Shown in pieces: positions 6,331-44,012 of a stretch of DNA of 64,000 nt. This stretch comes from Halosolutus halophilus (GTDB taxonomy: Archaea; Halobacteriota; Halobacteria; Halobacteriales; Natrialbaceae), in NCBI RefSeq assembly GCF_022869805.1, contig NZ_CP094974.1, forward strand, positions 4,216,001 through 4,280,000. The letters run 5' to 3'. The notes under the pieces were generated by a model that was not told the origin of the DNA, did not search any database, and saw nothing but the letters and a program-made list of their open reading frames with translations. The stretch's first letter is position 1, and each line of letters starts with the position of its first letter. The position numbers and the translations under genes are program-made.

Positions 6331-7764
6331 TCACGGTTCCGCCGTCTCTGACGCGGTAGGCGGCTCTCGGTCCTCGCCGGTGGCGACCGCGGCCGGCGTC
6401 CGATCGCGACGGTAGCGGTGAACGACACAGCCCGCGAGCATCACCAGACTACCCGCGAGCACCGGCGTGGCCACCGAGAGCAGGGCGATTCCGACGGCAA
6501 ACACCGGCTCGCCGATCGCGGCCGGCAGCGCGGCCGAAAGCGACGCGAGCGTCGGCCCCATGAGAACGACGTTCGCGAGCAGGGCCCCGGCGACGAGAAG
6601 CCGGCGCGCGACCCGATCGGCCACGAGGTACAGCGCCGGGACGAGCGTGCCGAACAGGAGCACGTAGTACAGCGGGTACGACGGGAAGTAGACGAAGACC
6701 GCGATCAGCGTCGCGTGGGCCGCGACGAGTCGATCGGTCAGCGTCTCCACGCGCGTGTAGACGTAGCCGAGCGGAATCGCGAGGACGAGGGCGGCGAGGA
6801 CGGACAGCAACGCCGGGTCGATCGCCGGCACCTGCGAGAGCGGCCGCCTGATCGTCACGTAGGTCGCCATCGGGTCGAGGCCGCCGGCGAACGCCTCGCC
6901 GTCGCGTCGCGGGAGCAGCGCCTCGAGAAAGAAAGCCCGCGTGCGGTCGCGCCCGAACAGGAGCGCGCCGAGCGCGAGGCCGCCGAGTCCGGTCCCGATC
7001 GCACCGGCGATCCCCCGCCACGCCCGGAGTCGCAGGAGCCAGAGTCCGATCGCAGCGGGGAACACCTTCAGCAGCGCCGCCCCGCCGAGGGCGACGCCCG
7101 CCAGCGTTTCGGTTCGGTCCGCCGATCCGCCGCTCGGGTTCGCGTCCGCGACGTCACCGGTCGCGGCCTCGAGCAAATACAGGCCGAGACCGACCAGCAG
7201 CGCCATCCGCAGGTTGATCTGGCCGTACACCAGCGACGGGACGGTGTGGATCGAACCGACGACGAAGGCGGCGATAAGGAGCCGATCGAGCCTGGCGAGG
7301 GGACGGTGGCGTTCGATCCGCCGGACGAGCAGTCCGGCGAACGTCAGCCCGAGGCCGACCTCGATCGCGGTGTGGACGACGAAGCCGGGCCAGAGACCGA
7401 CGACCGCGAACGGCAAGAACGGAACGAGCGTGATTGGCGGGTAGAGGTAGTAAAAGTCGGGGAATCGTTCGGGTGCGACGGCGTAGACGTCCTCGCCGGC
7501 GATGGCGGCCTCGGCGGCGACTCGGTAGACCTCGAAGTTCGCCGCGAGCATGTGCGATCGATCGGCGGCCATGGCGACGAGCATGGCGACGCCGAGACAG
7601 ACGCCGCTCGCGAGGACGGCACGAGCACCCCTGGTCGGGACGGGACGGGACACGGGTCGAGGATCGAACGGGATCGGTTTGAGCGTGCCGATCCGGATTC
7701 GATTGGGGAGCGTTCCGGACGACCGATCGGCGCACAGACCGTCGCGACAGAGAATGACACGCAC
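6331..7764 (-). CDS. GT87-family membrane glycosyltransferase
   Basis: A 477-residue polytopic protein of the DUF2029/GT87 type, related to mycobacterial polyprenol-phosphate mannosyltransferases. Seen: an N-terminal helix followed by a loop with DFYYLYPPITLVPFLPF, the segment YGQINLRMALLVGLGLY, and GVALGGAALLKVFPAAIGLWLL, all typical of the family, with about ten helices and a polar C-terminus. It is expected to use a lipid-linked sugar donor on the outer membrane face, perhaps for glycolipid or glycoprotein synthesis. GTG at 7764 gives the longest frame; the first about 40 residues are not family-like, so the true start may be later. It is divergent from metY. Confidence 0.8.
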   Translation of the reverse strand: MRVILCRDGLCADRSSGTLPNRIRIGTLKPIPFDPRPVSRPVPTRGARAVLASGVCLGVAMLVAMAADRSHMLAANFEVYRVAAEAAIAGEDVYAVAPERFPDFYYLYPPITLVPFLPFAVVGLWPGFVVHTAIEVGLGLTFAGLLVRRIERHRPLARLDRLLIAAFVVGSIHTVPSLVYGQINLRMALLVGLGLYLLEAATGDVADANPSGGSADRTETLAGVALGGAALLKVFPAAIGLWLLRLRAWRGIAGAIGTGLGGLALGALLFGRDRTRAFFLEALLPRRDGEAFAGGLDPMATYVTIRRPLSQVPAIDPALLSVLAALVLAIPLGYVYTRVETLTDRLVAAHATLIAVFVYFPSYPLYYVLLFGTLVPALYLVADRVARRLLVAGALLANVVLMGPTLASLSAALPAAIGEPVFAVGIALLSVATPVLAGSLVMLAGCVVHRYRRDRTPAAVATGEDREPPTASETAEP

Positions 7765-28347: not shown

Positions 28348-29271
28348 ATGCCAGAAAAGCAGTCGAGTCACGATCGCAGCCGAAACGACGATCGGTTCAA
28401 ATCCATCGTTGGGCGCCGCGCGTTCATCGCCGCTGGCAGTGGTGTCAGTGCGACGCTGCTCGCCGGGTGCACGGCAGATAGTACGCCGGCGGACGATGAG
28501 AACACCGAGGGGTCCACGGACGACGCGGATACCGAGAGTGGAAACTTCCGGCTGCTCATCAGTGACATGCCGGCCGACATCGGAGATTTCGACAGGCTGG
28601 ACGTCACCTTCGACAGGGCTCGTATCTTCGACGGCGGGAACGAGGAAGCGGACGACGAAGACGAATCGGACGACGACAAAGAAGCCGCAGACGAAGAAGA
28701 ACAGGCGGACGACGGGGACGGTGCCGACGATCCGGACGACGACGAGGAAGACGAGGAGGAATCCGAGAAAGAAGACGACGAAGAAAACGAGAACGTCGAG
28801 CGAAAACGCGGGTTCTACATCCTCGACCTCGACGGTGCGACGGTGGATCTCACGCAGGTCGTCGGTGACAAAGCGACGAACGTCTTCGAGGGAGGCCTGT
28901 CGGAAGGCACCTACCAGAAGATCGAACTTTACGTCTCGGACGTCGAGGGGATCGTCGACGGCGAAGCGGTGGAGGTGAACGTCCCGAACGAAAAACTGCA
29001 GATCAACAAATCCTTCGAGATCGGTGGCGACGACTCCGTCGAGTTCGTGTTCGACATCAACGTGGTCAAGCGCGGGCCGGACAACGGCTACAATCTGAAG
29101 CCCGTGATTTCGAAGAGTGGTGTCAACGGCAAGGATATCGACGTCCAAGAGGTGAAAGACGACGCGGACAAAGGTGACGAGAAAAAGAAGAAAGGAGCCG
29201 GCGATGAGGACGGTGCCGCCGAGACGGAGGAAAACGGCACTGATGAGGACGACGACGGAGCCGACAATTGA
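28348..29271 (+). CDS. DUF4382-domain lipoprotein with a long acidic insert
   Basis: A 307-residue exported lipoprotein: twin Arg (GRRAFIAAG), lipobox LLAGC (Cys41). The DUF4382 fold begins with NFRLLISDMPADIGDFDRL and resumes after an insertion with FYILDLDGATVDLTQV, YQKIELYVSDVEGI and VEFVFDINVVKRG. Residues about 98-150 are almost only Asp/Glu/Ala/Lys and interrupt the domain; a second acidic tail (about 280-307) ends the protein. The function of DUF4382 is not known; a surface or adhesive role has been suggested for beta-rich members. The acidic insert may bind cations. A 28-bp repeat lies just past the stop. Confidence 0.8.
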   Translation: MPEKQSSHDRSRNDDRFKSIVGRRAFIAAGSGVSATLLAGCTADSTPADDENTEGSTDDADTESGNFRLLISDMPADIGDFDRLDVTFDRARIFDGGNEEADDEDESDDDKEAADEEEQADDGDGADDPDDDEEDEEESEKEDDEENENVERKRGFYILDLDGATVDLTQVVGDKATNVFEGGLSEGTYQKIELYVSDVEGIVDGEAVEVNVPNEKLQINKSFEIGGDDSVEFVFDINVVKRGPDNGYNLKPVISKSGVNGKDIDVQEVKDDADKGDEKKKKGAGDEDGAAETEENGTDEDDDGADN

Positions 29272-34833: not shown

Positions 34834-35535
34834 CTACACCAGTTGTGTCTCGCCAGATGCGAGGAGCGACGCCGGAGCGACGTCCCACCGATCCGCGGTG
34901 ACGCCGTCGACGCCGGCCTCGTGGAGGGCTCGCACGTCGTCGACCGTCCGTGCCGCCTTCCACGCGATGACGTCGAACCCGTGCTCGCGGGCGGCGGACA
35001 CCACGTCGGTTTCGAGGCAGAGTTCGTAATGGGGAAACACGTGCGTACAATCCAGGTCGATCGCCCGCGAGAGGTTGACGTCGGGTTCCTCTCCGAAGAG
35101 GAGGCCGTTCGGGACGTCGAGGGGGGCCGCCTCGATCTCCGCGAGTGCCTCGGGGAGAAACGACGAAACGCGGACGTCGGCGTCGGCCGCCATCGCAAGC
35201 TGTAACGTATCCAACGCGATACCCCGTTCTTTCAGTTCGAGTTGAACGGTTACGTCGTCCGGGACCACCTGCAGCACCGACTCGAGACGGGGAATCGGTT
35301 CGCCCGATTCGAGCACGGTCAGGTCGCCGAGATCGGACCAGGGCGTCTCCGCGACTCGTCCGTCCGCGTCGGTGACGCGCTCGAGCGTCTCGTCGTGAAA
35401 CGCCACCAGTTCGCCCGATCCGCACCGCCGAACGTCGACCTCGACTGCGGGCAGCCGACGGGCGGCTTCACGGATAGCGAGGAGGGTGTTCTCCGGGAAC
35501 TGAGCTGCACAGCCTCGGTGGCCGATAATCTCCAT
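34834..35535 (-). CDS. glycerophosphodiester phosphodiesterase
   Basis: A 233-residue GDPD-type TIM-barrel enzyme. The catalytic pieces are IGHRGCAAQFPENTLLAI, the EVDVRR segment (Glu/Asp metal ligands), and AFHDETLERVTDADG, then VQLELKE. It hydrolyses glycerophosphodiesters to alcohol plus glycerol phosphate. The length is normal for a compact archaeal/bacterial type. It lacks a signal peptide, so it acts inside the cell. A TATA-like AT-rich element (35563-35570) lies upstream of the ATG. It lies 140 bp past the nucleotidyltransferase gene and reads in the same direction. Confidence 0.88.
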   Translation of the reverse strand: MEIIGHRGCAAQFPENTLLAIREAARRLPAVEVDVRRCGSGELVAFHDETLERVTDADGRVAETPWSDLGDLTVLESGEPIPRLESVLQVVPDDVTVQLELKERGIALDTLQLAMAADADVRVSSFLPEALAEIEAAPLDVPNGLLFGEEPDVNLSRAIDLDCTHVFPHYELCLETDVVSAAREHGFDVIAWKAARTVDDVRALHEAGVDGVTADRWDVAPASLLASGETQLV

Positions 35536-35675
35536 CTACCGGTCACCCAACAGCCAGTGGTCATCAATATTGTGATTTCCTCGCCCGTTTTTGGCCAATC
35601 ATTCAGAATATGTCCCGAGATCGAGTGTCGTCCCTGCGGACAGCTATCCCTTCCGCGACGCCCGCCGTTCGCCGA

Positions 35676-36356
35676 TCACGCACAGCGGATCCGCTCGGAC
35701 GCGAGCCACGTCCGGGCCCGATCGAGATCCGCCGGCCGATTGATCTCGACGTGTCGATCGGCCGGTATCAACAGCGGCCGGGTCGGCGTCAGGGGGTAGA
35801 CGCAGGGGTACCAGTCGTGGAGCCGCGTTCGCAGGACCCGGATCGCAGCCATCCGGTGATCGCGGCTCACGACGCCGAACCCGGCGTGCTGGTGGCCCTC
35901 GATGAGCCCGTAGGCCGTCACGCGCCCCGTCTCGTCCCAGCGGATCGCCGTCTCCACGTCCTGTAGCCCGGGGATACACCCGACGAGGTTGAGCCGACCG
36001 CCGAGGGCGTCGAACTGGCCCGTCAGCCGCCCGATTTCGCGCATGTCGACGAGTACGTCGCCGTTCAGGACCAGCAGATCGTCGTCGATTCGTCCGAGCG
36101 CGAGGAGCAACGACGCGGCGTTCTCGTATCGGTCCCAGTCCTCGAGGATCAACGGGTTCTCGGGATCGAACCGTTCGAGGACGGTCTCGTGACGATACCC
36201 CAGCACGACGGCCGTTTCGTCGACGTGTGGCTCGAGTAGCGCGCACTGTCGATCGTACAGCGTCCGGCCGTCGAACTCGAGAAAGGCCTTCGGGACGTCG
36301 CCGGTGTAGTGGCCCATTCGTCGGCCCTGACCCGCGGCGAGGATCACGCCACGCAT
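35676..36356 (-). CDS. nucleotidyltransferase, sugar/alcohol-phosphate type
   Basis: A 226-residue Rossmann-like transferase. The N-terminal loop MRGVILAAGQGRRMGHYTGDVPKAFLEFDG is the NTP-binding motif, spanning residues 1-30, and the VLNGDVLVDM motif gives the metal-binding Asp. The segments PLILEDWDRYENAASLL and YGLIEGHQHAGFGV resemble LicC/choline-phosphate or alcohol-phosphate cytidylyltransferases. It would activate a phosphorylated sugar or alcohol with CTP or another NTP. It starts 25 bp after the TagF/TagB-like gene, so they are probably one operon; a TATA element is not seen between them. Confidence 0.8.
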   Translation of the reverse strand: MRGVILAAGQGRRMGHYTGDVPKAFLEFDGRTLYDRQCALLEPHVDETAVVLGYRHETVLERFDPENPLILEDWDRYENAASLLLALGRIDDDLLVLNGDVLVDMREIGRLTGQFDALGGRLNLVGCIPGLQDVETAIRWDETGRVTAYGLIEGHQHAGFGVVSRDHRMAAIRVLRTRLHDWYPCVYPLTPTRPLLIPADRHVEINRPADLDRARTWLASERIRCA

Positions 36357-36415
36357 CGGTCCACCTCCCTCGCAGCGGGGATCACGCCCTGCATCGAAGC
36401 ACCTCCCTCGCGGCG
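36334..36415. repeat. imperfect 38-bp direct repeat at a gene junction
   Basis: Two copies about 44 bp long, 38 bp apart (one from 36334, one from 36372), with several mismatches. Copy 1 covers the start of the nucleotidyltransferase gene; copy 2 lies in the end of the upstream gene and re-creates an ATG and a MQGVIPAA-like reading. Confidence 0.55.
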
Positions 36416-37368
36416 CGCTCGCCGGCCCGGCCGTCCATCGGGATGCCGAGGTACTCGATCCAGGACGCTCGTCGTCGCTTCACGGCGTCGGGTTCGCCGT
36501 TGTGGTACAGATCGTCGACGAGTTCGAGATCGATCGCGTCGGTCGTGACGCCGATCCGCGGCACGTCGCGGTCCGGCGCATCGACGTCCGTCAATTGGAC
36601 GAGCGGCCGACCGGTGTGGAGCCACTCGGCGATCGAACCCGAGTAGTCCGAAATAAGGACGTCCGATCGACGCATGCTCTCGGTGGGCGTCGTAGCCGTA
36701 TCGAAGACGACGTTCGGCACCCCGTCGATCCGGCGCCTGCAGTTGCGAGTGACAGCCAGCCCCGGCCCTTCGCGTCTGTCGGTCGGGTGTGGACGGAAGA
36801 GCAGTTCGTACTCCGTGTGGGCGAAGCACTCGACGACCGAGCGGGCGGTGTTCGCGTACGCGCCGCGGCCGACCATGTAGTTGGTCGGCGCGTACAGCAC
36901 CCGGCGTTCGCGGGGCGGTGGCGCATCGGCCAGCGCGTCGGCTTCCGGGATGCCGACGACGGCCACGGTCACGTCGGACGGCGCAGCGGCCCGGTACGCC
37001 TTCGCCCACCGTTCGCCGGGTGCCAGCGCGGCGGCGACGTACTCGAGGATCGTCTCCGCCGTCACGGCGACCTCGCCGCGACCGATCGACGCACCGTGTC
37101 GCAGGTGAACGAGCGGATACTCCTCGTAGAACGTGAACCGCTCGATGCCGAATCGGTGGTTGTAGACGACGACGGAGGGATCGATCGCGCTGACGTTGTC
37201 GTCGACCGCCCCGGGATCGTCCACGTCGATTTCGTCGATGCGGTCGCTACAGCCGCGCGCATCCGCCCGGACCGGGACGAACGCCGACTCGACGTCCACG
37301 TGACGGTCGATCGCCTCGAACGTCTTTCGCATGAACGGTCGCTCGATGGCGTACAGTACCTCTACCAT
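36382..37368 (-). CDS. TagF/TagB-like CDP-glycerol glycerophosphotransferase family protein
   Basis: A 328-residue glycosyltransferase-B-type protein of the poly(glycerol phosphate) transferase family. The hallmarks are the phosphate-binding LLFRPHPTD and the SDVLISDYSGSIAEW motif, plus VLYAPTNY for the second nucleotide-fold half. In bacteria it transfers glycerol or ribitol phosphate to a wall polymer; in archaea it is uncommon and the acceptor is unknown. ATG at 37368 (MVEVLYAIERP) is chosen because the 53 codons upstream are arginine-rich and not domain-like. The nucleotidyltransferase gene follows 25 bp later. Confidence 0.8.
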   Translation of the reverse strand: MVEVLYAIERPFMRKTFEAIDRHVDVESAFVPVRADARGCSDRIDEIDVDDPGAVDDNVSAIDPSVVVYNHRFGIERFTFYEEYPLVHLRHGASIGRGEVAVTAETILEYVAAALAPGERWAKAYRAAAPSDVTVAVVGIPEADALADAPPPRERRVLYAPTNYMVGRGAYANTARSVVECFAHTEYELLFRPHPTDRREGPGLAVTRNCRRRIDGVPNVVFDTATTPTESMRRSDVLISDYSGSIAEWLHTGRPLVQLTDVDAPDRDVPRIGVTTDAIDLELVDDLYHNGEPDAVKRRRASWIEYLGIPMDGRAGERAAREVLRCRA

Positions 37369-37620
37369 GCGTGAAACTCCTCGACGGCGCCTTGGCGAGC
37401 GCCGTCGGTCCGTTCGCTGGAACGTATCAGCTTGTCGGCTCCGCCGAACGGACGAAACGGTACGTACAATCAGGTCGGACAGAGTAATAACGTTTGTAGT
37501 ACTCTTGAGGACAGAACTCGGATCCACGAACGGGAGGAACGCGCCCGCGTTCTCGACCGACCGAGGCCCAGTGACACCGTTCGTGCACCGATCGACCGAG
37601 ACGAAACACGGCGAGTAAGC
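37369..37620. other. intergenic region before the HIT gene
   Basis: About 250 bp. No gene or RNA is seen. It carries the divergent starts of the TagF/TagB-like gene and the HIT gene, the latter with TTCTTA at 37621-37626. I see no obvious TATA element for the TagF/TagB-like gene. Confidence 0.35.
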
Positions 37621-40301: not shown

Positions 40302-41483
40302 TCAGAACCCGAAGATCGGAACGAACTGGAACGTGAGATACGCGCCGACCGTCGCGATGAGCGGCACGACGTTCTGCATGATGATGACCCGCGCCGTCGT
40401 CGACGGATCGAACAGGTCCGACGCCCTGGGGATGTCCTCGGGTTCCTCCTCACCGATCTCGGGTGGCGTCTCGCCCTCCTCCTCGGCCGTGAGCGCACCG
40501 ACGGAGACGCGGGTCTCCTCGCCCCTGCGAGCGTCGGAGAGCGTCGTCGTCCGGGTCGCGCGTCCCCAGCCGAGACCGATGATGCACATCGTCGCGACCA
40601 CGACGAAACTCGCGGGGATCCCGATCGCCGACAGCATGATGACGATCGTCGACGCGATGACTGCGACGACGATCGCCGCCGTCAGCGGGAGGTTCGTGAT
40701 GTCGTTGCCGAGCGTGTCGAGCGTCCGGCGGGCGATCGTGAAACAGCCCACCGCGACGGCCGCAGACCCGAGCAGGATGAGCGGGACCATCTCGAATTCC
40801 CCGGTGCCGTAGATCGGTGCGATCGCGTTCGCGATGTTGCTCGTCCCGGAGGAGAACGCCATCAGGCAGCCGATCCCGACGACGACGAACGCGCCCGTGA
40901 TCTCCCGTCGGTTCGCGCCGATCCCGAACTGGAGTCGGGGGACCGTCCCCGATCGATCGACGGTGATCATCTCCCGACCCTCGCGGTCCCCCTCGATGGC
41001 GACCCACGCGTTGATCCGGGGGTAGAAGTAGCGGCCGACGACGCCGGCGACCCAGAACCCGATGATCGGAGCCACGATCCACCAGACGACGATCTCACCC
41101 ATCACCGCCCAGTTGAGTTCGCCGGTCGCGAGACCGAGTGCGGCGATCGCACCGACGGCGGTCATCGACGTCGAGGCGGGGACGCCCGCGTAGTTACCCA
41201 CGAACAGCGCGCCGCCGATGAAAAAGAGGACGGCGACGTTCGATCGCATGGTGAAGATGTCGGTCGTGTGGACGAGTTCGTCCCCGAGCGTCGTGACGAC
41301 GTTCGGCCCGATCGTGATCGCGCCGAGAAAGAAGAAAATCGACATCAGCGCCGCTGCCATGAGTTTCGTGATCACGTTGGCTCCGACGGCGGGGCCGAAC
41401 GCGGGCCCCGTCGTCGCGCCGCCGATGTTGTAGCCGACGAAGACCGCCACGAGAAGCCCCACGATAAGCAGTACTTCTGTCAC
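40302..41483 (-). CDS. PiT-family inorganic phosphate transporter
   Basis: A 393-residue PiT (NRAMP-independent low-affinity phosphate) transporter with about ten helices. Each half carries the repeated signature: VGYNIGGATTGPAFGP at the start, and SSGTSNIANAIAP in the second half. A large polar loop (RGEETRVSVGALTAEEEGETPPEIGEEEPEDIPRA, spanning about residues 320-360) precedes the last helix. GTG at 41483 is chosen by alignment with the second PiT in the window and a TATA-like element 27 nt upstream, over a GTG four codons earlier. Close paralogue of 42846-44012. Confidence 0.9.
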   Translation of the reverse strand: MTEVLLIVGLLVAVFVGYNIGGATTGPAFGPAVGANVITKLMAAALMSIFFFLGAITIGPNVVTTLGDELVHTTDIFTMRSNVAVLFFIGGALFVGNYAGVPASTSMTAVGAIAALGLATGELNWAVMGEIVVWWIVAPIIGFWVAGVVGRYFYPRINAWVAIEGDREGREMITVDRSGTVPRLQFGIGANRREITGAFVVVGIGCLMAFSSGTSNIANAIAPIYGTGEFEMVPLILLGSAAVAVGCFTIARRTLDTLGNDITNLPLTAAIVVAVIASTIVIMLSAIGIPASFVVVATMCIIGLGWGRATRTTTLSDARRGEETRVSVGALTAEEEGETPPEIGEEEPEDIPRASDLFDPSTTARVIIMQNVVPLIATVGAYLTFQFVPIFGF

Positions 41484-41506
41484 AATGATATCCACACGAG
41501 CCGTCC

Positions 41507-41513
41507 CTAAAAA
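41507..41513 (-). promoter_or_regulatory. TATA-like element of the first PiT gene
   Basis: TTTTTAG on the minus strand, centred about 27 nt before the GTG at 41483, as expected for a leaderless mRNA. It helps decide the start. Confidence 0.5.
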
Positions 41514-41833
41514 CGCGCCTATTTGTCCCCGGTGTCGGCAGACGGATTCCGGGCGTCGATCCAGGTCCGGTGACGGCGATCGGCGGTCGATCGGCGACGG
41601 AAACGGCTGAGCTAGCCCCCACGACTCGATCCGGCCCGTGCAGCGACCGCACACCCGATCCAGTGGGGATCCCGTGGACGATCCCAAAGCGTTTCACCGA
41701 ACCGTACCCTACATCGGGACATCATGTCGTCACGCGCACCATCGGTTCGGTGGAGTGGCAGTCCGCAGGGCGGACGCGTTTCGTCGCAGTCACGGACGGC
41801 GCTGATCGATTCGGTCGCGCCCGTCAGTCGACT
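41514..41833. other. divergent intergenic region of the first PiT gene
   Basis: About 320 bp between the PiT gene and the coiled-coil membrane protein. No gene is seen; the frames give low-complexity readings only. It contains the PiT TATA element at its left edge. I see no clear inverted repeat for phosphate control. Confidence 0.35.
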
Positions 41834-42346
41834 ATGAGACCGGCACGTGTCGATGCGATCATCGACCTCGCGTACGGCGGGTTGATCCTCCTCTCGATCG
41901 TCCTGATCGCGACGCTCGACATCCGGATCGGGCTGACGTTCGGGCTGGGCGTGTTCGCCTCGTACATCCTGCACGTCGTCTGGAAGATGGCCCGGTTCGA
42001 TCCCGACTGGATGACCCGGACCGTCCAGGAATCGGTCGAGCAGACCGTCGGCGACGCCGTCGAGGAACAGGTCGAAGCGACGATGAGCGAGACCGTCGAA
42101 GAGTCGGTCGAGCGGACCGTCGGCGACACCGTCGAAGAGTCGGTCGAGCGGACCGTCGGCGACACCGTCGAGGAACGCGTCGAACGAACCGTCAGTGACA
42201 CCGTCGAACAGACGGTCGGCGACCAACTCGACGAGGTGCAGGCGCAGGTCGATTCCGTCGACGAGCGAGTCGACCGGCGGCCTCGCGAGGAGGAAGTCGA
42301 GGAACTCATCGAGGAATCGACCGAGGACGACCGGCCCGACGCCTGA
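41834..42346 (+). CDS. two-helix membrane protein with a 12-residue-repeat coiled coil
   Basis: A 170-residue protein. Two hydrophobic helices (about 10-27 and 31-50) anchor it. Then a 12-residue unit VEESVERTVGDT repeats at 88-99 and 100-111 (identical, also in DNA from 42095), with a variant VEERVERTVSDT at 112-123 and looser copies on both sides. This is an amphipathic, acidic coiled coil of about 80 residues, ending in an acidic Glu/Asp-rich tail. ATG at 41834 is chosen at the first hydrophobic helix. Function unknown; its position next to the PiT genes suggests a role with transport. It ends 22 bp from the convergent UspA gene. Confidence 0.7.
   Translation: MRPARVDAIIDLAYGGLILLSIVLIATLDIRIGLTFGLGVFASYILHVVWKMARFDPDWMTRTVQESVEQTVGDAVEEQVEATMSETVEESVERTVGDTVEESVERTVGDTVEERVERTVSDTVEQTVGDQLDEVQAQVDSVDERVDRRPREEEVEELIEESTEDDRPDA
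42095..42166 (+). repeat. two identical 36-bp tandem units
   Basis: The codons for the two identical 12-residue repeats are the same at the DNA level too, so this is a recent duplication within the gene. The neighbouring repeats differ. Confidence 0.65.
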
Positions 42347-42368
42347 TCGGCCCCAAGTCGACGGCCGG

Positions 42369-42794
42369 TCACCGGACGACGACGACCGGGGTCGGCGACT
42401 GACGAACGACTTTCTTGGCGACGTTGCCGACGTAGAAGTAGTCCGAAATGGACCCGCCGTGACTGCCGACGACGACCGTATCGTAGTCGTCGGCGCAGTT
42501 GATGATCGCGCGAACGGGATGTCCCAGTTCGACGACCGTCTCGAGGTCCGCGTCCCCGTCGGCGACGTCGACGAGTTCCCGCGCCCGATCGAACACCGGT
42601 TGCGCGTGTTCCTGGGCCGCTTCCTCGAGGTCGTCGGCGAGGGCGAGCCCCGACGCCTCGCCCCACATCGACGACGGTTCGCCGACGACGGTCAGGACGG
42701 TTACCTGGGCGTCCGGATAGGCCTCGAGGGCGTACTCGAGTGCGTGTTCGCTCATCTCCGAGCCGTCCATCGGAACGAGAATGTGTGAAATCAT
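42369..42794 (-). CDS. universal stress protein (UspA family)
   Basis: A 141-residue Usp domain. It begins MISHILVPMDGSEMSEHAL and carries the C-terminal VVGSHGGSISDYFYVGNVAKKVV, where the GSHGGS...GNV pattern departs in part from the usual ATP-binding motif. ATG at 42794 has its own TATA-like TTTATTC about 26 nt upstream, so it is transcribed apart from the PiT gene that starts at 44012, though it lies 51 bp after its stop. It is placed between two PiT genes and may regulate or report on phosphate transport; this is inference. Confidence 0.88.
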   Translation of the reverse strand: MISHILVPMDGSEMSEHALEYALEAYPDAQVTVLTVVGEPSSMWGEASGLALADDLEEAAQEHAQPVFDRARELVDVADGDADLETVVELGHPVRAIINCADDYDTVVVGSHGGSISDYFYVGNVAKKVVRQSPTPVVVVR

Positions 42795-42845
42795 ACCCGA
42801 TCTACGATGGCGGCGCGAATAAACGCCGGGGACGGCGACGGACAC

Positions 42846-44012
42846 TCACCCGACGAACGGAACCGCCGTGAAGAAGCCGTAGGCCAGCAGCGTCGACATC
42901 GACGGCCCGATGATCCACATCGAGACGTACTTGACGATCGCTCGCGGATTGAACAGATCGCCCGCTTTCAGGACTTCCTCGGGCTCTTCTTCACCGATTT
43001 TCGTGATCGGGGCGTCCGGATCCGCCTTCAGCGCCCCCATCGTCATCTCCGTGTCGACCTCGCCGCGAATGGCCTCCTGGGCCGTGACGGGACGGGTCGC
43101 ACGCCCCCAGCCGAGGCCAACGATCGTCATCACGGACGCCATCACGAGGCTGATCGGAATGCCGGCCCACGAGAGGATCGTCGTGATCGTCGAGGCGGTG
43201 ATCATGACGATCAGGGCCGCGAGCAGCGGGATATCGCTGAGTTCGCCGCCGACGGATTCCATCGTCCGGCGGGCGATGGTAAAGCCGCCGAATCCGATCG
43301 CGAGCGTCGCGATGATGATGGCGGTGTCGACCTGGAGATCGCCGCCGCTGACCAGCGGTGCGACGGCGTTCGGGACGTTGCTCGCCCCGGCGCTGAACGC
43401 CATGTAACAGCCGATGACGAAGACCACGATCGTTCCGCCGAGTTCCTGGTAGGTCGTGTTCGGGCCGAGCGCCAGCGTCGGGACCGAACCGCTGCGATCG
43501 ACGGCGAGCAGCGGTCCCTCGGAGGTGCTAATTTCGAACCGTCGGTTGAGTTCGGGGTAGACGTATCGGCCGACGGTCGCGCCGATCCAGAGCCCGATAA
43601 TCGGCGTGACGATCCACCACGAGATGATCCAGCCGATCGTCGCGAAGTTGGTCGTCTCGGTCGCCAAACCGAGGCCGACGATCGCGCCAACGGTCGTCAT
43701 CGACGTCGGAACGGGGACGCCGAAAACGTTCGCGACGAGAATCCCCAGCCCGATGAAAAAGAGGACGGCGACGCCCGCCGCGAGCGAGATTTCGATCGTG
43801 ATTATGTCGCCCGATAGCGTGTCCATCACGTTTCGACCGACGGTCCACCCGCCGAGGAAGACGAAAAACGTCATCAACGCCGCAGCCGTGACCTTGCTCA
43901 GGATTCCGGCACCCACGGCCGGCCCCCACGCGATCCCAGTCGACGAGCCACCGATGTTGAAGCCGACGAAAATCGAGACGACGACCCCGACCAACAGCAC
44001 GGTTTCGACCAT
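42846..44012 (-). CDS. PiT-family inorganic phosphate transporter
   Basis: A 388-residue paralogue of the PiT at 40302-41483. It has about ten helices, the N-terminal VGFNIGGSSTGIAWGP and the second-half SAGASNVPNAVAP signature. The polar loop before the last helix is KADPDAPITKIGEEEPEEVLK, spanning about residues 330-350, shorter than in its paralogue. ATG at 44012 is supported by a TATA-like element inside an inverted repeat. It may be cotranscribed with UspA (gap 51 bp) in part, but UspA has its own promoter. Substrate: probably phosphate; sulfate is possible. Confidence 0.9.
   Translation of the reverse strand: MVETVLLVGVVVSIFVGFNIGGSSTGIAWGPAVGAGILSKVTAAALMTFFVFLGGWTVGRNVMDTLSGDIITIEISLAAGVAVLFFIGLGILVANVFGVPVPTSMTTVGAIVGLGLATETTNFATIGWIISWWIVTPIIGLWIGATVGRYVYPELNRRFEISTSEGPLLAVDRSGSVPTLALGPNTTYQELGGTIVVFVIGCYMAFSAGASNVPNAVAPLVSGGDLQVDTAIIIATLAIGFGGFTIARRTMESVGGELSDIPLLAALIVMITASTITTILSWAGIPISLVMASVMTIVGLGWGRATRPVTAQEAIRGEVDTEMTMGALKADPDAPITKIGEEEPEEVLKAGDLFNPRAIVKYVSMWIIGPSMSTLLAYGFFTAVPFVG

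Follow-up and report, generated by a model that had tools for sequence, protein, structure and literature searches.

A set of three adjacent genes in the haloarchaeon Halosolutus halophilus, encoding a compact TagF-like transferase, a LicC/PntC-like nucleotidyltransferase (NTP) and a glycerophosphodiester phosphodiesterase (GDPD), was found to recur as a conserved set across haloarchaea, and its members are probably co-functioning. The trio lies within a 64,000-nt stretch of NZ_CP094974.1 (positions 4,216,001-4,280,000; hereafter the window), taken from a genome made up of a single contig of 5.06 Mb. From the families of the three proteins and their partnership, the reading that is somewhat favoured is that they form a small cytoplasmic alcohol-phosphate transfer system, in which a CDP-alcohol synthase, a transferase and a phosphodiesterase would act on one product. 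The positions and common strand that an earlier sequence-only reading had given for the three genes were found to be exact (Table 1).

Conservation and possible mobility of the trio

The genes were surveyed in 391 haloarchaeal genomes of the class, with 17-kb stretches fetched around the 30 other genomes with strong matches and around a weaker second match in genome G312. The TagF-like protein was matched in 33 of the 391 genomes (strongly in 31, weakly in G039 and G319), and in 30 of the 31, the window included, the NTP gene was located directly downstream; a GDPD gene stood on the same strand beside the pair in 26. Strong NTP orthologues (>190 bits) were present in 30 of the 391 genomes, all of them among the 31 carrying the TagF-like gene, which corresponds to a Fisher p of 4e-44 for the co-occurrence of the two, uncorrected for the kinship of the genomes. 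A scan of contigs from named genomes returned 19 loci, all haloarchaeal and several from the same genomes as the survey, every one of which held the full trio; the genera represented were Haloterrigena, Natrinema, Natronorubrum, Haloarcula, Haladaptatus, Halorussus, Halorientalis, Halobaculum and Halomicrococcus, together with other Halobacteria. In nine comparisons, covering the three genes against three relatives each, dN/dS values of 0.12-0.27 were obtained, and the trio genes are under purifying selection. The possibility raised with the sequence-only reading, that neighbours might differ in all relatives, was not borne out, as the trio is kept together in other haloarchaea. A chance neighbourhood was likewise rejected, the genes being co-inherited and adjacent across the group. 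The TagF-like gene of G384 (locus L053), which has neither NTP nor GDPD nearby and a divergent C-terminus, is perhaps a decaying remnant.

Gene families that recurred beside the trio, other than its own members, were UspA, carboxylase, GTPase and methyltransferase, none of them in more than 5 of 25 loci and those in related taxa, and no exporter, flippase or glycosyltransferase gene recurred beside the trio among the neighbour families of these 25 loci. In 6 of the 31 genomes (L052, at 6659-7588, L054 and L056-L059), the vicinity of the TagF-like gene includes a gene of the endonuclease/exonuclease/phosphatase family; at L052, L054 and L059 it is present and an adjacent GDPD is absent, and it might replace or assist the latter enzyme.

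In 15 of 17 Natrialbaceae-type genomes, the window counted, the trio has a uracil-DNA glycosylase-like gene on one side and a HIT gene on the other. Thirteen genomes of the same family have no trio, and there the two flanking genes stand no more than 0.71 kb apart in ten cases, with five of the trio-less genomes showing separations as small as 42-118 bp. Outside this family the flanks differ. According to plasmid records, Haladaptatus plasmids bear the full trio, and one Halobaculum plasmid has the TagF-like and NTP genes but no GDPD. The trio of Haloarcula rara and of genome G301 (L051 and L071, Haloarcula-type) is about 80% identical to that of the window, as against 53-58% for other trio-bearing genomes of G301's family, which suggests recent transfer between families of the trio as a unit.

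Family assignment and archaeal relatives

The NTP was matched by PF12804 (Pfam, E 1e-16), and in a profile search of the PDB its best match was LicC (E 1.9e-11, residues 2-91, a region that includes the YxN...SL segment), followed by ST0452, PntC and an inositol-1-phosphate cytidylyltransferase. Its AlphaFold model (pLDDT 90.9) had PntC as top fold match (Z 24.8, rmsd 2.4, 217 residues aligned). The LicC-type identity assigned in the sequence-only reading thus appears to hold by profile, where LicC ranks first, and by fold, where PntC does. As a single sequence, the protein found archaeal inositol-1-phosphate cytidylyltransferase (IPCT) as its best PDB match (E 4e-5), and the best NCBIfam matches were AglF and archaeal GlmU, both far below cut-off. 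Of the ten NTP-type matches encoded in the window's genome, the trio member alone is close.

LicC is a CTP:phosphocholine cytidylyltransferase, but identity over the fold is 15% and LicD was not found in the window's genome, so that no known phosphocholine route exists there. PntC is a CTP:2-aminoethylphosphonate cytidylyltransferase, whereas the best phosphoenolpyruvate mutase match in the window's genome reached 96.5 bits against a cut-off of 319.55, making a phosphonate supply unlikely; phosphonate transfer was rejected on this ground. IPCT aligns in fold at 24% identity, yet no membrane CDP-alcohol phosphotransferase domain is fused with the NTP or lies next to it, and its partner is a TagF-like protein instead. 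The motif YxNxxSL was rejected as a family signature, being present in 21 of 22 trio NTPs and in none of six distant TagF-linked relatives, while W...EN, YGxIxGHQ-like and EIN motifs are common to the trio NTPs and these six.

For the transferase, an alignment (A1) was made of 23 sequences, near-identical ones being excluded. Compared with archaeal full-length PF04464 proteins, the 23-row profile gave E 1.6e-15, and a cleaned profile of 21 rows, from which L096 (a misread row) and L107 (without the DYS[SG] motif) had been removed, gave E 7.3e-15, with probabilities of 98.4-98.5% in both comparisons. Three members of the clade exceed the PF04464 cut-off by themselves (G026 with 36.6, G005 with 25.8 and G058 with 23.2 bits). 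The AlphaFold model (pLDDT 88.6) found TagF (3l7k) as its best PDB fold match (Z 20.9, rmsd 3.3, 303 residues aligned), TagF being represented by structures with CDP-glycerol soaks, with a capsule polymerase next at Z 20.4 and TarL with CDP-ribitol at Z 19.4. Two Haladaptatus plasmid rows were excluded from the structure alignments A3 and A4, and in A4 one Halobaculum plasmid row was replaced by its genome copy. Residues H91, H194 and S240-G244 are invariant in the 23 relatives, Y242 excepted, and in the 23-row comparison H91, H194 and the SDYSG motif have aligned counterparts in the canonical family, H91 falling outside the shorter 21-row alignment; the two histidines are presumed to be the counterparts of TagF H444 and H548. 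The TagF-type identity proposed from the sequence therefore seems to hold at the level of profile and predicted fold despite a weak Pfam score. The protein shares with TagF, TarF and TarL the GT-B fold and aligned HG, VLYAPT, R/KxHP, S/TDYS and DGxxxER motifs, but differs in its length of only 328 aa, its short N-terminal part, a score near or below the family cut-off and the absence of teichoic-acid genes around it.

The GDPD gave matches to PF03009 (E 1.4e-26, 94.5 bits against a cut-off of 23.6), to the UgpQ-like NCBIfam family PRK09454 (E 5e-25) and, by profile, to solved GDPDs (E 2.5e-33). Its catalytic motifs, HRG..ENT, E-x-D, H-D and E-L-K, are intact, and their residues are invariant in an 18-row alignment (A5) with two C-termini trimmed at stops. 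As read from the sequence, the protein has no signal peptide and starts immediately with the catalytic domain. It resembles cytosolic UgpQ-type GDPDs by family and profile, but is linked to the TagF-like/NTP pair and not to a glycerol-phosphate transporter. Five GDPDs are encoded in the window's genome.

The same partnership was also encountered independently of the compact trio. Six weaker NTP relatives (102-142 bits) all occur in genomes without the compact TagF-like gene, and near each of them a PF04464-family gene was found, at 2 bp to 1.8 kb (17-kb stretches, one of 14.7 kb); some lie in glycan clusters with UDP-GlcNAc 2-epimerase, sulfatase or methyltransferase genes. Another haloarchaeal genus has a series made up of TagF, GDPD and an NTP that is joined to a HAD-IIA phosphatase in one protein (L165:7018-11974 and L167:9511-12082), and at L168, of the same genus, TagF and GDPD were seen. 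Among other archaeal TagF loci, an NTP match was obtained in 12 of 20 fetched, and these NTPs may be ordinary sugar nucleotidyltransferases. The canonical haloarchaeal TagF loci L158, L160-L162, L165 and L167 are like the trio in holding an NTP, and some a GDPD, nearby, but their TagF is full-length, L157-L162 are mostly in glycan clusters, and the NTP of L165 and L167 carries the HAD phosphatase.

Proposed pathway and competing explanations

In the proposed pathway, the NTP would couple CTP and an alcohol phosphate, in the simplest case sn-glycerol-phosphate, to give a CDP-alcohol, as its family and partnership suggest. The TagF-like enzyme, judging by its family, fold and motifs, would then use the CDP-alcohol as donor and join its alcohol phosphate to an acceptor hydroxyl, generating a phosphodiester; a lipid-linked glycan, a glycolipid or a small polyol are candidate acceptors. 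Finally, the GDPD may hydrolyse the glycerophosphodiester or its breakdown products, thereby recycling or reversing the mark. That the NTP product is some CDP-alcohol is considered likely, while opinion is evenly balanced on whether the alcohol is glycerol; of the possible cargoes glycerol phosphate is the most probable, given that the set includes a GDPD and is accompanied by no dedicated precursor gene.

Several observations weigh against this proposal. The TagF-like protein of the window scored 21.5 bits with PF04464 (E 1.3e-4), below the cut-off of 22.1; a single-sequence search of PDB sequences returned no match for it, and its profile search of the PDB returned only spurious (oxygenase) matches. 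UDP-GlcNAc 2-epimerases match its model at Z 19.7, and the fold alone is therefore not decisive; similarly, LicC (Z 22.4) and GlmU (Z 23.1) are tied as fold matches of the NTP, so that fold alone does not separate them. The GDPD is absent from beside the pair in G026, G122, G287, G312 (where a trio-type GDPD lies on another contig) and G384, and in G384 the TagF-like gene is without an NTP as well. GDPDs are moreover widespread, 237 of the 391 genomes having a match at E <= 1e-30, and in the window 140 bp lie between the NTP and the GDPD, which may thus be a separate transcription unit.

Part of this evidence would suit an alternative in which the NTP is a nucleotidyltransferase of the ordinary kind that acts on sugar-1-phosphates, the TagF-like protein is an ordinary GT-B enzyme transferring glycosyl or sugar-phosphate groups, and the GDPD is a hitch-hiking salvage enzyme. 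AglF and GlmU as best NCBIfam matches of the NTP and the tie between GlmU and LicC in fold point in this direction, as does the report in PMC8262930 that TagF-like domains can transfer hexose-phosphate too. This explanation is nonetheless improbable, given that LicC ranks first in the NTP profile search and that all six distant NTP relatives pair with PF04464 genes and have the W...EN, YGxIxGHQ-like and EIN motifs in common with the trio. A complete teichoic-acid-like wall or capsule polymer, a poly(polyol phosphate), is a further alternative. All three genes resemble families whose members activate, attach or remove the alcohol-phosphate groups of bacterial walls, TagF being a polymerase, and bacterial GlpQ-type GDPDs degrade teichoic acids; but the TagF-like protein is a single domain, the GDPD reads as cytosolic and the conserved cassette contains no polymer export genes. 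In the window's genome, the TagA/WecG family (PF03808) gave no match, although control genomes did, and the trio member is the one PF04464 match in total, leaving no second such protein to provide separate primase and polymerase. A search through PF01467 for TagD, which could be the source of the donor, found five proteins; of five partial domains, one was named pantetheine-phosphate adenylyltransferase and four had no name. Full teichoic-acid synthesis was rejected as unsupported, since TagA/WecG, LicD and a second PF04464 protein are missing from the genome, and the wall-like polymer envisaged in the sequence-only reading, for which no exporter or glycosyltransferase recurs beside the trio either, is highly improbable.

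It is also conceivable that the product is a soluble phosphodiester, such as a solute of the diglycerol phosphate or glycerophospho-polyol type or a phosphate store, which the cytosolic GDPD would degrade once the need for it has passed. All three proteins are predicted to be soluble and, as read from the sequence, have no signal peptide; neither exporters nor flippases nor glycosyltransferases recur beside the trio; the cassette occurs by itself on plasmids and at varied chromosomal sites; and IPCT, the best single-sequence PDB match of the NTP, feeds such solutes. Against it, the known archaeal solute pathways use a membrane CDP-alcohol phosphotransferase and not a TagF-like enzyme, and KCl is the main means by which haloarchaea balance salt. 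PMC8262930 mentions archaeal glycerophosphoinositol as well as an unidentified glycerol-phosphate cytidylyltransferase activity found in lysates of Archaeoglobus, both of which would fit a soluble product, but the distant homologous pairs lie amid glycosyltransferase, sulfatase and epimerase genes, which points to glycans, and a soluble product is on the whole unlikely. In its most specific form, the alcohol-phosphate transfer system would be an undescribed mobile haloarchaeal pathway. CDP-glycerol would be made by an enzyme of the NTP_transf_3 fold that has no kinship with TagD, possibly using the archaeal enantiomer sn-glycerol-1-phosphate; a minimal, soluble TagF-like enzyme would attach glycerol phosphate to a haloarchaeal glycan, lipid or solute; and a dedicated phosphodiesterase would take this reversible mark off again. 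So detailed a version is rather unlikely.

Gene junction, flanking features and implications

The sequence-only reading had given a gap of 25 bp between the TagF-like and NTP genes, which is correct in the window but not general, as the two frames overlap by exactly 13 nt in 29 of 29 fetched relatives with both genes. The junction of the window carries an imperfect tandem duplication of 38 bp (82%), which supplied a second NTP start, removing the overlap and leaving the gap; the ancestral start now opens a remnant frame of 16 codons. Upstream of the TagF-like gene, at a distance of about 116 nt from its start, stands an AT-rich box; inspection by eye showed similar boxes in most relatives of Natrialbaceae type. 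Two putative phosphate permease genes, PiT-like by sequence similarity, precede the trio by a few kb, and the pair stays near it in several Natrialbaceae-type relatives. Elsewhere in the window, a putative lipoprotein is extremely acidic, with long D/E runs.

Table 1. Features of the trio locus and its surroundings, in window positions
Feature	Position	Strand	Evidence
Compact TagF-like (PF04464-related) GT-B transferase, single domain, 328 aa	36382..37368	(-)	Pfam, profile, AlphaFold model
LicC/PntC-like nucleotidyltransferase (NTP; PF12804), 226 aa; proposed CTP:alcohol-phosphate cytidylyltransferase	35676..36356	(-)	Pfam, profile, fold
Glycerophosphodiester phosphodiesterase (GDPD; PF03009, UgpQ-like), 233 aa	34834..35535	(-)	Pfam, NCBIfam, profile
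First copy of 38-bp repeat: TagF-like 3' end and ancestral NTP start	36380..36417	(-)	
Second copy of 38-bp repeat: present NTP start codon	36342..36379	(-)	
AT-rich box, candidate promoter element	37484..37497	(-)	Read by eye in unaligned listing
Two PiT-like (presumed) phosphate permease genes, UspA-like gene between	40302-44012	(-)	
Putative lipoprotein	28348-29271	(+)	

That genes of this kind would be strange in an archaeon, as had been supposed, was an overstatement. Among 344 genomes of the phylum, 40 have a PF04464 match, with canonical full-length proteins in several other haloarchaea included, and TagF-like genes are therefore already known in archaea as annotations, for example as 'CDP-glycerol glycerophosphotransferase family protein' in plasmid records. 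No study of the compact trio was found in the open-licence literature, as far as its accessible text extends, and what appears to be new is thus the compact TagF-like/NTP/GDPD combination, archaeal TagF-family genes as such being known already. If the proposal is correct, the chemistry is directly testable, as the three proteins are small and the trio is absent at a clean site in close relatives and transferable to a strain that lacks it. Archaea would then have a compact, self-contained route to phosphodiester-linked alcohols, and the W...EN, YGxIxGHQ-like and EIN motifs would mark a cytidylyltransferase family partnered with TagF-like enzymes. Furthermore, which enantiomer of glycerol phosphate the pathway employs would be relevant to the lipid divide that separates archaea from bacteria.

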